Assembly (NCBI RefSeq): GCF_003999255.1
Contig: NZ_CP034791.1
Coordinates: 763,001 to 827,000, forward strand
Length of the DNA stretch: 64,000 nucleotides
DNA from: Caldicellulosiruptor changbaiensis
GTDB taxonomy: Bacteria; Bacillota; Thermoanaerobacteria; Caldicellulosiruptorales; Caldicellulosiruptoraceae
Direction: 5' to 3'
Both the position numbers and the translations under genes were made by a program. The notes beneath the pieces were generated by a model. The model did not search any database, was not told the origin of the DNA, and saw only the letters and a list, made by a program, of their open reading frames with translations. Positions 12,838-63,301 of this stretch are shown piece by piece; positions within the stretch are counted from its first letter, which is position 1, and each line of letters begins with the position of its first letter.

Positions 12838-13782
12838 ATGACTAAGAATATTAAAGCACAAAATAAGAAATTTTTAAAGCTGCTTTTTGTAATAAAAAAG
12901 GTTACTGAAGTTTTATCGAGGAAGATAAAGCAAAATAGAAGGGGACGACCGAGGAAATTTAATCTGTTTCAGATAATAGCTTGTTTGGTTTATAAAGTTA
13001 AAAAGGGGATAAAGAGTTTCAGAGAATTAGAATATCGAATAAATCAAGACACAGAGTTTAAGCAAGTAGTAGGTATAGAAGAAAGTCCGGACTATTCATA
13101 TTTTGCAAAGTTGTCAAGAAAAATAGAAAAAGAATACATGCAAGATATAAAAGACATATTAATAGCTAAGATAGAACCTGATATGAGTATAGCGATAGTA
13201 GACTCTACGCCGCTGAGAAGTGCCAAAAATGATTCAGAAGCAAAAATAGGTATACATATTACAATAGGATTTTTCAGGGGATACAAATTACATCTTTTGT
13301 GTACAGGTAAAGAAGAAGTAATACCACTTTTCTGGATTTTAACAGGGGCAAATGAACATGACTCAAGACAAGAAGAGCTTTTGTATAGGGCATGGGGCTT
13401 TGGCTGTGAGATTGTATTAGCAGATGCGGGATACGATTGTAGCAGATGGTTTAATATAGCAAATGAGCTTAAAGTTAAATTTGTTGCTGGGATAAACAAA
13501 AGAAACATGAAAAATAAAAACAATGTTAGCAATAGTTTTAGAAGCAAGAACATAAGATTTTTAGAAACTGAAGAGGGTAAAAAGCTATACAAGCAGAGAA
13601 CAAAGATTGAAAGACTATTTAGCAAATTAAAAGGTGAATATAATCTTGAGAATGTGAGGCTCAAGGGATTTAGAAATTATAAAAGGTATATTGATTGGAT
13701 ACTAATTACTTTTCTATTTGAGCAACTTCTTAGAAAGTTAGAAGGTAAGAAGTTTTCTTTCGCTTATGAATGGAATCAATAA
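12838..13782 (+). CDS. Transposase of the IS4/IS5 superfamily (DDE type)
   Basis: 314 residues. It has a basic N-terminal region with an AT-hook-like RRGRPRKF near residue 36, then a DUF772-like helical part, then the DDE core. Catalytic residues are seen as Asp in IVDSTPL, Asp in LADAGYD and Glu in QRTKIERLFSKLK. The reading frame is intact, so the element may still move. Translation is likely limited by the stem-loop at 12777-12831. The overlapping minus frame at 13092-13664 is a shadow. Confidence 0.93.
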   Translation: MTKNIKAQNKKFLKLLFVIKKVTEVLSRKIKQNRRGRPRKFNLFQIIACLVYKVKKGIKSFRELEYRINQDTEFKQVVGIEESPDYSYFAKLSRKIEKEYMQDIKDILIAKIEPDMSIAIVDSTPLRSAKNDSEAKIGIHITIGFFRGYKLHLLCTGKEEVIPLFWILTGANEHDSRQEELLYRAWGFGCEIVLADAGYDCSRWFNIANELKVKFVAGINKRNMKNKNNVSNSFRSKNIRFLETEEGKKLYKQRTKIERLFSKLKGEYNLENVRLKGFRNYKRYIDWILITFLFEQLLRKLEGKKFSFAYEWNQ

Positions 13783-13878: not shown

Positions 13879-13938
13879 ATTTTAACCATCATACGTGGTA
13901 TATTTTTACAATTAAATTACAAAAGAAGGCAGCAACAG

Positions 13939-13967
13939 TTGAAAATAGTTATGCAAAAGGGTATAAT
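13939..13967 (+). promoter_or_regulatory. Promoter of IS607 tnpA
   Basis: TTGAAA (13939-13944), 17-base spacer, TATAAT (13962-13967), 20 bases before the ATG. Confidence 0.7.
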
Positions 13968-13986
13968 TTTAATTAGGTGATGATAG

Positions 13987-14592
13987 ATGTTATTAAGTAT
14001 GCAAAAAGTAAAAGAAATATACTCAATCAGTCGAAGGACACTTATAAACTGGGAGAAAGAGGGGTTAATTACCCCTGTTAGAACCCCAAAGGGTAGAAGA
14101 AGGTATAAAAAAGAAGACATAGAAAAACTACTGGGTATGATAGAGGAAAAAGCAAAGCCAACCGTTGTTTTGTATGCAAGGGTATCAACAAAAAAGCAAG
14201 AAGAGTACCTTAAAAATCAGATAAGAAGACTTGAAGAATATGCCAATTCTCAAGGGTGGCAATATGAGACTATATTTGAGATAGCGAGTGGGGTGAACGA
14301 GAACAGAAGGGGACTGTTGAAACTTTTGAACAAGATTAAGAGAGGAGAAGTTGAAAAAGTTGTAGTGGAGAATCCTGACAGACTTGCAAGGTTTGGGTTT
14401 GAATATCTCAAATTTTTTATGGAAAGCTATGGAGTAGAACTTATAGTGCTAAACGGTCAAGAAAACGAAGAAGACATAAACAAGGAACTGGCAGAGGATT
14501 TAATAGCGATAGTAACATCTTTTGCAGCAAGGATTTATGGTAACAGAGGTGCAAAAAAGCATGGTAACAGTTCAGGCCAAGCTAATTTTTGA
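13987..14592 (+). CDS. tnpA: IS607-family serine recombinase TnpA
   Basis: Catalyses movement of the element by serine recombination, expected to use an intermediate circle. 201 residues. Residues 1-50 form a MerR-like helix-turn-helix (RTLINWEKEGLITPVRTPKG). From about 58 is the resolvase domain with YARVSTKKQ, in which the Ser is the nucleophile, and later NPDRLARFGF. The frame is intact. TAGGTGATGATAG precedes ATG 13987. The end overlaps the tnpB start by 32 bases, as is usual for IS607. Confidence 0.92.
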   Translation: MLLSMQKVKEIYSISRRTLINWEKEGLITPVRTPKGRRRYKKEDIEKLLGMIEEKAKPTVVLYARVSTKKQEEYLKNQIRRLEEYANSQGWQYETIFEIASGVNENRRGLLKLLNKIKRGEVEKVVVENPDRLARFGFEYLKFFMESYGVELIVLNGQENEEDINKELAEDLIAIVTSFAARIYGNRGAKKHGNSSGQANF

Positions 14593-16101
14593 AAGCAGGG
14601 AAGATAAACAAAAAGTCCTGGACCTTATGAGAAGATGGTCATCATGCATGAGGTATGCATACAAGAGGTTACTTGAAGGTCACACAAGAAATGAACTCAA
14701 AAGAGAGCTGCAGGGGATTTTCAATCTTAATTCCCGATACGTGGATGATGCAATAATGAAAGCAAAAAGTATTTTGACCTCCTGCAAAGAAAGAGGCGAA
14801 AATCCCAGGAAGGTCATTTTTGGTGGCAGGCAGCTTTTTGAAAAACTAAGGAAGCGACATATAAACGGCGAACAATATAGGAAACTTCAACTTAAGTGGC
14901 AGGAGAAAAGAAAGGGGAATCTGTATTCAAGAGGAGACAGGAGCAAGAAAGGTAATCTCAATACAAGGATTGAGATAGACGAAGATTGTACAAGACTTAG
15001 AATCAACGTAGGAGAAAGGGAGTATGTATATGCGAGAATACAGCCTGGATGGAAGATAAAAGATGGAAGGTACATTGATAGAAAATCAACTTCTTGAGGC
15101 GATAAGTATTTCTGGACAGTCTTATTCTGCTGAGCTGAAACTTAAAAGTGGTATAGTATATGCCTACTTTGCTATTGAGGAAGTTTTCCCAAAACCTGCA
15201 ATAACGAGAGCGAATGGAGTTATAGGGATAGACACTAATGCATATCCAAAGAATGTTGCATGGGTAGAAACAGATGATCAGGGACAGTTTCTTGGATATG
15301 GGGAAATACCACTTGAGAAGCTTGAAAGTGGCAGCTTTGATAAAAGAGAGTATTACAGGTGGCAGTATGCTCATGAGATTGTAAAAATAGCAAAAGAATA
15401 AGAGAAAAGCTGTTGTGATTGAAAGACTGGACATGAAAGACAGAGGAAGAAGAGGAGATTTTTCAGGTAGAAAATCAAGACGGATAAGACATTATTTTGG
15501 GTACAGGTCACTTTTGGAGAAGGTAAAACTTTTAGCAAAGAGAGAAGGTGTAGAGGTTATAGAAGTAGACCCTGCATACAGTTCTGTAATAGGGATTTTG
15601 AAGTACACGCCGCAGTTTATGGTGACAAAGGACGTAGCTGCAGCATACGTAGTAGCAAGAAGGGGGCTTGGACTGAAGGAGAGGATACCGTCAAACTATA
15701 TGGAGTTTTTGAGATTGCTCGATAGAAGTAGTTTAGAAGAACTAAAAGAGTATGTAAGCAAAACGGTGAAGAATGTAATTTTGAGGAGGAAGCAGATAAA
15801 GGAGATTGAGAATGTGATGCGGATGATACAAAGCTCTGAGAGTGAGCCGGGGAAGGTATCAGGGTCTCTGGGTGGAACAAGTTCTGGTACCTGTGGTAAA
15901 GGTCACAATCTCTGGCGAGTTCTCAGGGTAGCGGTGGTAACGCCACTTTCCCCTGACAGGATATTGCGTGACATGTCTGTCCTGAAATCGATATTGGTTT
16001 CAGGGCAAGTGGGGGAACCGAGATTCGGCGTGAGTTCCTGTTTCTTGGGGCAGGGGCTATGGCTTTCCCAAATACCGCCTGCTGGGGCTGGGAAAGCTTG
16101 A
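14561..16101 (+). pseudogene. tnpB: TnpB (RNA-guided nuclease family), frameshifted
   Basis: Three consecutive frames together make a TnpB protein. Piece one is 14561-15097. Piece two, from about 15090 to 15401, has the RuvC-I Asp in VIGIDTNAYP. Piece three, from about 15404, has the RuvC-II Glu in VVIERLDMKD and the RuvC-III Asp in TKDVAAAYVVARR. The first shift is near 15070-15097. The second is at 15399-15405, where one extra base in AAAGAATAAGAGA separates 'HEIVKIAKE' from 'KAVVIERL'. ATG 14561 with AGAGGTG upstream starts inside tnpA. No CxxC zinc-finger pair is visible. The three catalytic acids survive but the frame does not, so it is probably inactive. The last about 80 codons overlap the structured RNA tail. 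Confidence 0.85.
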
Positions 16102-16154
16102 AAGGCGGACTATAAATACCCCAGCCGCTAAACTCGTGCAGTTTTGCACAGTTT
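15850..16154 (+). ncRNA. Candidate omega-RNA (reRNA) of the IS607 element
   Basis: The sequence becomes much richer in G and C than its surroundings and is full of pairing arms:
CCTGAAA / TTTCAGG around 15980-16003;
GCTTTCCCA / TGGGAAAGC around 16062-16098;
CCGCC / GGCGG and CTGGGG / CCCCAG, which interlock with the previous stem as a pseudoknot;
a last hairpin with GTGCA / TGCAC, bounded by AAAC and GTTT, at 16130-16154.
Guide RNAs of TnpB come from exactly this place, the 3' end of tnpB and the right end of the element. The boundaries are approximate and the guide segment would lie in the flank near 16155. A GC-rich coding tail is the alternative, but the pairing is against it. Confidence 0.6.
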
Positions 16155-16176
16155 AGTTGACCAGGAAAATTTTATT

Positions 16177-16734
16177 ATGAGCATAACACGCGATATTGCA
16201 CTTGAAGAAGTTAAGAAGAGAATTAAAACACCAAACCTGCTTAAACATTGCTTGGCATGTGAGGCTATTATGAGAGGGCTTGCATGCTATTTTGAAGAGG
16301 ATATGGATAAATGGGGAATATGCGGGCTTGTCCATGACATAGATTATGAGGAGACAAAAAATGACCCAAGCTCACACAGTATAGTTGGTGCAAAAATATT
16401 AGAGGATTTAGGGTTTGACAAAGACATTGTGTATGCAGTAAAAGTTCACAACGACGCACATGGTCTTCCCCGTTTAAGTCTTATGGATAAAGCGCTTTAC
16501 TGTGTTGACCCAACTTCAGGGTTTATTGTTGCAGGTGCGTTGATTCTACCATCAAAAAAGCTCTCTGATGTGACAGTACCATTTTTAATGAACAGGTTTA
16601 ATGAGAAAAGCTTTGCAAAAGGGGCAAATAGAAGCCAGATGAAGGCATGTTCTGAGCTTGGGCTTGAGCTTGAGGAGTTTTTAAGAATATCTTTAGATGC
16701 CATGCAGAAAATAAGTGTAGAGCTTGGGTTGTAG
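16177..16734 (+). CDS. HD-domain protein (predicted metal-dependent phosphohydrolase)
   Basis: 185 residues. HD-type ligands are visible: His in LLKHCLACE, His-Asp in GLVHDIDYEE, His in SHSIVGAK and His in VKVHNDAHG. HD proteins hydrolyse phosphate esters, often of nucleotides; the substrate here is unknown. ATG 16177 is the first good start with the conserved beginning. The upstream ribosome site is weak (CCAGGAAAA), and the IS607 right end lies only about 20-45 bases away, so the native leader has probably been cut off. It lies 36 bases before rnr. Confidence 0.85.
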   Translation: MSITRDIALEEVKKRIKTPNLLKHCLACEAIMRGLACYFEEDMDKWGICGLVHDIDYEETKNDPSSHSIVGAKILEDLGFDKDIVYAVKVHNDAHGLPRLSLMDKALYCVDPTSGFIVAGALILPSKKLSDVTVPFLMNRFNEKSFAKGANRSQMKACSELGLELEEFLRISLDAMQKISVELGL

Positions 16735-63100: not shown

Positions 63101-63301
63101 TTTTTTTGCACATTCAATTGCAACAGAAACCTTTTCAAACCACTCGTGAGAAAGGTAGGGTATTTCAAGGCCTTGCCGTGGATGAATGAAGAACCCGCCA
63201 ATTCCTTTTTCATGCATCTGAGCTATTTGAACTGCTATTTCATCATTTTCAATTTTCCCATTCCAAAACCAGAAAGGTTTTATTTTGAAATTGATGTCCA
63301 T
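60182..63301 (-). CDS. GH106-like glycoside hydrolase, large
   Basis: 1,039 residues, no signal peptide. N-terminal: KPFWFWNGKIENDEIAVQIA, then GFFIHPRQGLEIPYLS, then EVWLYDEYPYPSGISAGEV; then GIFTDETAPVAG with candidate acids; a beta-sandwich end with a jelly-roll sugar-binding fold. This is the pattern of GH106 alpha-L-rhamnosidases and relatives. The start ATG 63301 has GGAG 8 bases upstream; a GTG at 63310 overlaps that site. A minus-strand promoter (63355-63383) precedes it, next to the divergent LacI-type gene. Confidence 0.83.
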   Translation of the reverse strand: MDINFKIKPFWFWNGKIENDEIAVQIAQMHEKGIGGFFIHPRQGLEIPYLSHEWFEKVSVAIECAKKYNMEVWLYDEYPYPSGISAGEVVAQHPEYQAFILDYKVFEAKDNEEICIEIPMCEVLLPRAYRIRNNTIVWNEYIDLIDYIGVIYKEHIYQESGLTFYNRKRYFVGDGAKVLKWKVPKGEWKIFLFYQYPLKNFKYFGTFIDPLNKDAVRLFIQTTHEKYKKYLGHEFGKTIKGIFTDETAPVAGKLPWSKLLPKLFEQTYGENLIEKLPQIICTDIFDTACSKIKYQFWKLVVDTFIESYDKQILEWCHQNNLLYVGEKPILRSSQLAFMDIPGIDAGHQKAGDIPQVVSENYRANPKIASSAAHFYKKERVLCECFHSIGWSMTMQDMKWIFDWLILQGIDMFVPHAFYYSADGLKKHDAPPSAFFQMPWWKHQKILSEYVENVTKMLKNCKRKVDVLVVDPITSQWTCFYEKEIKEKISKDFRRIQQILLEQNIDYYIVDQSLVRNLECRNQKIYYDNEKFELLIIPPVTNLEKEAYMKIKELILNGCKIVFIGCLPFQNIEDFDVAKDISNFLGVNPMDIAKAYTTGSKLNNTVFLNSCIFIGNIEDLATKIDKICEKPVSVSYESSNDRGILCAYFEDVDHDLLFIINPTKEKKSCMIHVGYKADEITRIYSVPLTLQDSEKEINFENSLDKKQMVFSISFEPFQSYLIKLEKSWIKKNNHKSDIEKRVFQYKIPLETPWKFSIESLNPLSLGRWNLKLIFNNENEQYSASSKIPVTPKPIIDQIEEAKIPIPLKTKSFFGCPKEITLPSFEAIYTTSFFVDVADQQFWLVIEDEGIKGEWVVLLNNHTILPRDFVSKRFYSHTNLAYDISNLIKLGENQLCVCVKISRSFDGLLTPIYIFSMAGIFKVDDSWHIGKLPTQGCFSKDLENGIPFYAGFIKYEKELQMPYLESGIVEFFIEDNVDQCVSLYINDELIGTRCWQPYRWKVDSDLLSSKKVKLTLEVSTSMLQLFEGEVIEEKTHKIKTI

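Follow-up and report, generated by a model that had tools for sequence, protein, structure and literature searches.

The right end of an IS607-family element in Caldicellulosiruptor changbaiensis is a two-module RNA, formed by an omega-RNA-like scaffold (15826-16059) and, behind it, an interlocked pseudoknot core with a terminal hairpin (16060-16162), and this second module is also conserved independently of TnpB before the start codons of host genes in three phyla. The element lies in a stretch of 64,000 nucleotides (nt) of contig NZ_CP034791.1 (positions 763,001 to 827,000), hereafter called the window, from whose first letter all coordinates are counted. We give about an even chance to a reading in which the module is a cis-acting, thermostable leader that keeps the downstream gene expressed, with insertion being tolerated and hosts retaining the leader. 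The fuller proposal falls slightly short of even: a transposon targeting Shine-Dalgarno sequences may bring its own pseudoknotted expression leader, possibly catalytic or ribosome-recruiting, which has been domesticated before dozens of housekeeping genes in thermophiles.

Structure and covariation of the right-end RNA

The core consists of three helices that cross one another in the order A B C A' B' C' (P1 to P3, an ABCABC pseudoknot), with hairpin P4 following (Table 1). P1 is formed by GCTTTCCCA (16062-16070) and TGGGAAAGC (16089-16097), and conserved, unpaired A-rich joints lie within the pseudoknot. The stem CCTGAAA/TTTCAGG is located at 15981-16004, and compensatory pairs of the scaffold include 15856/15890, 15861/15885, 15895/15904 and 16041/16050. 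P1 and P4 covary among 19 sequences of the genus. In a wider alignment of 35 sequences, which was fitted to P1 and P4 and not to P2 and P3, 96.3% of cells pair versus 80.7 +/- 0.7% in shuffles, two-sided changes occur in 24 of 31 pairs versus 13.8, with covariation scores of 0.469 versus 0.179. None of 500 shuffles attains any of these three measures, and shifting the partners by 1-3 columns abolishes the signal. The nested and interlocking stems named in the preliminary description are all where it had placed them, and the covariance check it had proposed finds compensatory changes in all four helices, the crossing P2 and P3 included. Among 160 distinct sequences, the pairs of P2 and P3 are formed in 97-100% of cases, except for the last pair of P3 (72%, often A.G), in a tally for which the best pairing partner was searched for and whose percentages are thus biased upward. 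Variants of P2 in this set are CCGCC/GGCGG, GCGCC/GGCGC and TCGCC/GGCGA, those of P3 are GCTGGGG/CCCCAGC, GCCGGGG/CCCCGGC, GTTGGGG/CCCCAAC, GCTGAGG/CCTCAGC and GCCAAGG/CCTTGGC, and Aquificota provide a further P3 variant, GCGGGGG/CCCCCGC. A candidate for the omega-RNA pseudoknot that joins a stem-loop of the scaffold to the nucleotides preceding the guide, between CTTGG (16044-16048) and CCAGG (16161-16165), is too invariant for covariation and is apparently broken in three copies (L008, L067, L085).

Codon-position bias ends near 15825 while conservation increases there, and the RNA therefore spans about 15826 to 16165. Structured RNA does occupy the interval of 15850-16160 first proposed, but it begins earlier and ends later than that. 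That the extension of the tnpB frame codes for protein was rejected, as codon periodicity stops at the same point and the end of the frame differs between copies.

The core is separable from TnpB

A structured RNA that follows tnpB and ends where the element ends, with a potential guide sequence behind it, occupies the position of an omega-RNA, and an omega-RNA is what had been predicted here. In its favor stand the position, the IS607 context, the structure, the covariation and a scaffold-like stretch at 15826-16059 that overlaps the 3' end of tnpB. However, the interlocking stems are a separable module, which is neither confined to the company of TnpB nor always present in the element. Four elements in four genomes (L008, L094, L095, L041) keep the scaffold and are missing the core, one of them (L094) with an open tnpB frame of 522 codons; they do not form one clade, and the module has therefore been lost or exchanged repeatedly. 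The core with P4 also occurs without nearby TnpB, directly 5' of start codons, as a leader of host genes. Between uxuA and a GH2 glycosidase gene it is kept in 11 of 12 Caldicellulosiruptor-type genomes, including one without a TnpB of the window-element family (G010), and at this locus the core is 85% identical versus 47% in the adjoining spacer. Neither the TnpB profile nor NF040570 finds a match in two genomes of Thermosediminibacter relatives (G073, G279; 98-99% complete), which retain two leaders each. Solo right ends with the insertion sequence (IS) hairpin and ..ACCAGG are common intermediates. A conserved RNA beside tnpB does not necessarily belong to the guide.

Distribution across thermophiles

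A pattern scan was run on 84,980 species genomes, and among the matches listed are Thermoanaerobacter and relatives, Carboxydothermus, Caldicoprobacter, Thermosyntropha, Aquificales, Thermodesulfobacteriaceae, Desulfofervidaceae and other metagenome-assembled genomes (MAGs). With covariance model R2, the module was found in 74 of 121 genomes of Aquificota and in 13 of 297 of Thermodesulfobacteriota (both phylum names inferred). Orthologous leaders occur in a group that includes Fervidicola, Thermovorax, and MAGs of Tepidanaerobacteraceae and Thermosediminibacteraceae (names inferred). The leader of ammA is present at 8 loci in 4 genera of Thermosediminibacter relatives, in which further orthologous leaders precede the genes for threonine aldolase, amidase, YjbQ, histidine phosphatase, RadA and ComEC. 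At least 32 leader copies are carried by one small genome of a single 1.5 Mb contig (G451), in which the scan scored 32 candidates, and the true number may be higher. In Aquificota, most inspected copies directly precede the start codon of a gene; these genes, unrelated to one another and in many cases highly expressed, were recognized by eye as rpoA, acp, hsp20, grpE, mreB, ftsH, trxB, hfq, rplU, rpsT, rpsU, rplY, rpmF, rplQ, ndk, glyA, ilvC, thiG, metE and tatA. A few Aquificota copies (L440, L419, L422) lie about 245 nt 3' of a TnpB of the window-element family, and the transposon form therefore exists in this phylum too. In a viral collection, 24 of 25 pattern matches are apparent chance hits in G+C-rich coding DNA, L140 alone being real, and a weak match in the window at 63180-63295, which has no CCGCC, is likewise regarded as chance. 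At another locus (L160, 1574-1641), a match to the NiCo riboswitch just below the gathering score lies upstream of a cation-transport-like gene.

Insertion site

The ends of the element were read from an alignment of about 40 copies in 12 genomes of the genus. In most of them the left flank is ..AGGAGG, the right end reads ..GTTTGGTTGACCA before GG (..ACCAGG), and a start codon follows a few to about 15 nt 3' of the right end; GG stands at both ends, before the left and after the right, in nearly all copies, and no terminal inverted repeat was seen among them, as in IS607. The insertion target of the element is therefore the GG of a Shine-Dalgarno-like sequence. In the window, the flanks, if joined, would read AAAAGAAGG-AAAATTTTATTATG, a ribosome-binding site (Shine-Dalgarno sequence) with the start codon at which the gene at 16178 begins, and elements also precede apparently the same downstream gene in two other genomes (G011 and G002; L056, L064). 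The target-adjacent motif (TAM) of ISFba1, which has an IS607 TnpB, is AGGAG, consistent with the AGGAGG left flank (PMC11061315). If the RNA guides a TnpB, 16166-16185 would serve as the guide. A promoter-like TTGAAA-17 nt-TATAAT lies at the left end (13930-13980), right after the split Shine-Dalgarno site, in most copies.

Table 1. Positions of the element, its genes and its right-end RNA in the window
Feature	Position	Strand	Remarks
IS607-family element	13928..16165	+	left end CAGCAACAGTTG, preceded by GG; right end GTTGACCA, followed by GG
tnpA, serine transposase (Resolvase + MerR helix-turn-helix)	13987..14592	+	
tnpB, N-terminal fragment (TIGR01765)	14546..15097	+	frame broken near 15080
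tnpB, middle fragment with RuvC-I (GIDTN)	15063..15401	+	frame broken near 15400
tnpB, C-terminal part with RuvC-II/III, no CxxC zinc finger	15415..15859	+	open frame continues over the RNA to 16101
omega-RNA-like scaffold	15826..16059	+	covariation in several stems; codon periodicity lost from about 15825
P1	16061-16070 / 16089-16098	+	two-sided changes in 10/10 pairs
P2, crosses P1	CCGCC 16075-16079 / GGCGG 16104-16108	+	two-sided changes in 2/5 pairs
P3, crosses P1 and P2	GCTGGGG 16081-16087 / CCCCAGC 16119-16125	+	two-sided changes in 3/7 pairs
P4, terminal hairpin (CTAAAC.. / ..GTTTAG)	16127..16158	+	two-sided changes in 9/9 pairs
Sequence directly 3' of right end	16166..16185	+	includes start of downstream gene (ATG 16178)
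Downstream gene	16178..16734	+	HD-type hydrolase-like, judged by eye; right end now its leader

Proposed role and rival explanations

Insertion into the GG of AGGAGG-n-ATG puts the leader module immediately before the start codon of the target gene, and in the proposed model the right end of the element then serves as the leader of that gene. The leader may then act in cis on the downstream messenger RNA (mRNA) and sustain expression after the ribosome-binding region has been split, by 5'-end protection and/or by setting up translation initiation. Insertion would thereby be tolerable, and hosts could keep the module as a gene leader once the rest of the element is lost, a domestication that would have been repeated. 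A cis effect on the downstream message is suggested by the position that insertion gives the module, with the split Shine-Dalgarno region before it and the start codon behind it, and by the fact that hosts keep the core and P4 and little else. This effect on expression may run through mRNA protection, translation or processing, with 5'-end protection and support for the initiation of translation at high temperature the likeliest roles, and transfer from IS to host seems more likely than the reverse. Among 78 non-redundant standalone copies, 15 have a -10 box ending 4-12 nt before P1, versus 7.6 +/- 2.6 in shuffled flanks (mononucleotide shuffles, 500 runs, maximum 16), and some messages should therefore begin with the module. 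A promoter within the core for the downstream gene was considered and rejected, since the TATAAA-like stretch is not conserved and transcription would start near the start codon.

It is unlikely, in our estimate, that the whole of 15826-16165, crossing stems included, is a single omega-RNA scaffold whose standalone copies are orphan guides acting in trans with TnpB. Such an arrangement would agree with the position between tnpB and the element end, the conserved spacing and covariation, and the fold match of TnpB to Cas12f and to the TnpB of ISFba1 and ISDra2 with RuvC D/E/D kept, and pseudoknots are known in omega-RNAs (PMC10711439, PMC11061315). However, standalone copies persist in the two genomes in which no TnpB was detected (G073, G279) and are without the 5' scaffold, four elements do without the core, and the "guide" behind a standalone copy would be its own gene, with no TAM-like sequence beside it. 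The conserved unpaired A-rich joints in a tight pseudoknot, together with copies that lie between operon genes (L010, L159, L151), might instead point to an undescribed self-cleaving or processing RNA that splits the downstream mRNA from the upstream transcript in element and operons. This is quite improbable, as no Rfam ribozyme matches and several leaders begin immediately after a -10 box, a position at which cleavage would have no effect. Further, a ligand- or protein-sensing, riboswitch-like cis-regulator acquired by the IS could be expected to be strongly conserved and to lie near the start codon, as the core does, but the downstream genes (ribosomal proteins, acp, mreB, radA, ammA, ilvC, hfq, GH2) have no common pathway, and we hold this possibility to be very unlikely.

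Several points weigh against a cis-acting leader that keeps its gene expressed. The promoter enrichment is modest and was measured against simple shuffles, and operon-internal positions are common among the leaders. Most transposon copies stand at a fixed distance from TnpB, about 150-160 or 230-250 nt, like a guide scaffold, and many standalone leaders carry a Shine-Dalgarno sequence too, so that the module need not stand in for one. In addition, downstream genes were named by eye from their open reading frame (ORF) sequence, and many of the genomes are MAGs, though G000, G010, G073 and G451 are single contigs.

TnpB lineage

The element was correctly assigned to IS607: its transposase has Resolvase (93.6 bits) and MerR (40.9 bits) domains, as in serine recombinases of this family with an N-terminal helix-turn-helix, and it encodes a TnpB-type RuvC protein. 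The tnpB gene, of the TIGR01765/TIGR01766 kind, is broken as described, being split over three ORFs. The idea that another TnpB copy in the genome could use the RNA is not supported for the window-element family, since searches with TIGR01765 and the TnpB profile found no intact TnpB of this family in the window genome, where two further element copies are both damaged too. The proposed look for intact copies did reveal intact relatives in other genomes of the genus. This TnpB lineage is divergent, because the Pfam TnpB model gives no match to the window fragments, D224, E287 and D357 of RuvC are invariant in six homologues (the window copy itself being broken), and a CxxC pair between RuvC-II and RuvC-III, the zinc finger, is absent from the same six. 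A Foldseek search with an AlphaFold model of moderate confidence (mean predicted local distance difference test score 64) matches Cas12f, ISFba1 TnpB and ISDra2 TnpB; a sequence search of PDB with the TnpB profile returned nothing relevant. A second, more distant TnpB-like family, with frames of 563 codons, is abundant in two genomes (G149, G256).

Relation to known systems

The window, the standalone leaders and the leaders of Aquificota have no match in Rfam 15. A twister-type or other known ribozyme or riboswitch, prompted by CCGCC, was rejected for lack of an Rfam match even at permissive E-values, as were known ribosomal-protein leaders (no Rfam 15 family), the RAGATH-18 right-end RNA (reRNA; no match to its Rfam covariance model) and a group I intron (no match to the model). 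The RNA resembles the TnpB omega-RNAs or reRNAs of IS607 elements (ISXfa1; ISFba1 with RAGATH-18) in running 3' of tnpB to the element end and in being structured with pseudoknots, and its AGGAGG flank resembles the ISFba1 TAM. However, it is longer (about 340 nt), matches neither RAGATH-18 nor any other Rfam family, and its three-way crossing core is absent from some elements and also exists without TnpB. IStrons are IS607 elements with a group I intron. Their extra RNA module could similarly lower the cost of insertion, whereas the module here, in place of splicing, is positioned before start codons. Standalone HEARO/IscB omega-RNAs are RNA copies without their nuclease gene, as are the present leaders, but the latter are fixed before orthologous genes, also in genomes in which TnpB was not detected. 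A compact RNA with a pseudoknot shortly before a start codon is also a feature of ribosomal-protein leaders, riboswitches and other structured 5' leaders, although here the genes behind it are unrelated to one another and a transposon carries the same RNA.

Such a leader is not mentioned in the searched passages of papers on Aquificales non-coding RNAs (PMC4227106) and IS607 reRNAs (PMC10711439, PMC11061315). We regard the RNA class, and its double life as transposon end and gene leader, as new, absence from these sources being no proof of novelty. If the model is correct, an undescribed class of structured RNA, borne by a mobile element and with an unusual three-way crossing fold, precedes, in many thermophilic bacteria, core genes such as those for ribosomal proteins, acp, hfq, ftsH, mreB and rpoA. 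It would provide a mechanism by which a transposon in a ribosome-binding site stays harmless and a way for guide-RNA elements to give rise to gene leaders, and it would raise the question of how an RNA leader might support expression near the boiling point.

Neighboring elements

A DDE transposase element (12838-13782) lies just upstream of the IS607 element, and near-identical copies of it adjoin other remnants of IS607 elsewhere in this genome (L008, L009). At the second of these loci, a solo terminal IS607 hairpin with GACCAGG is present without the core (1031-1076; G000:C1:592539).
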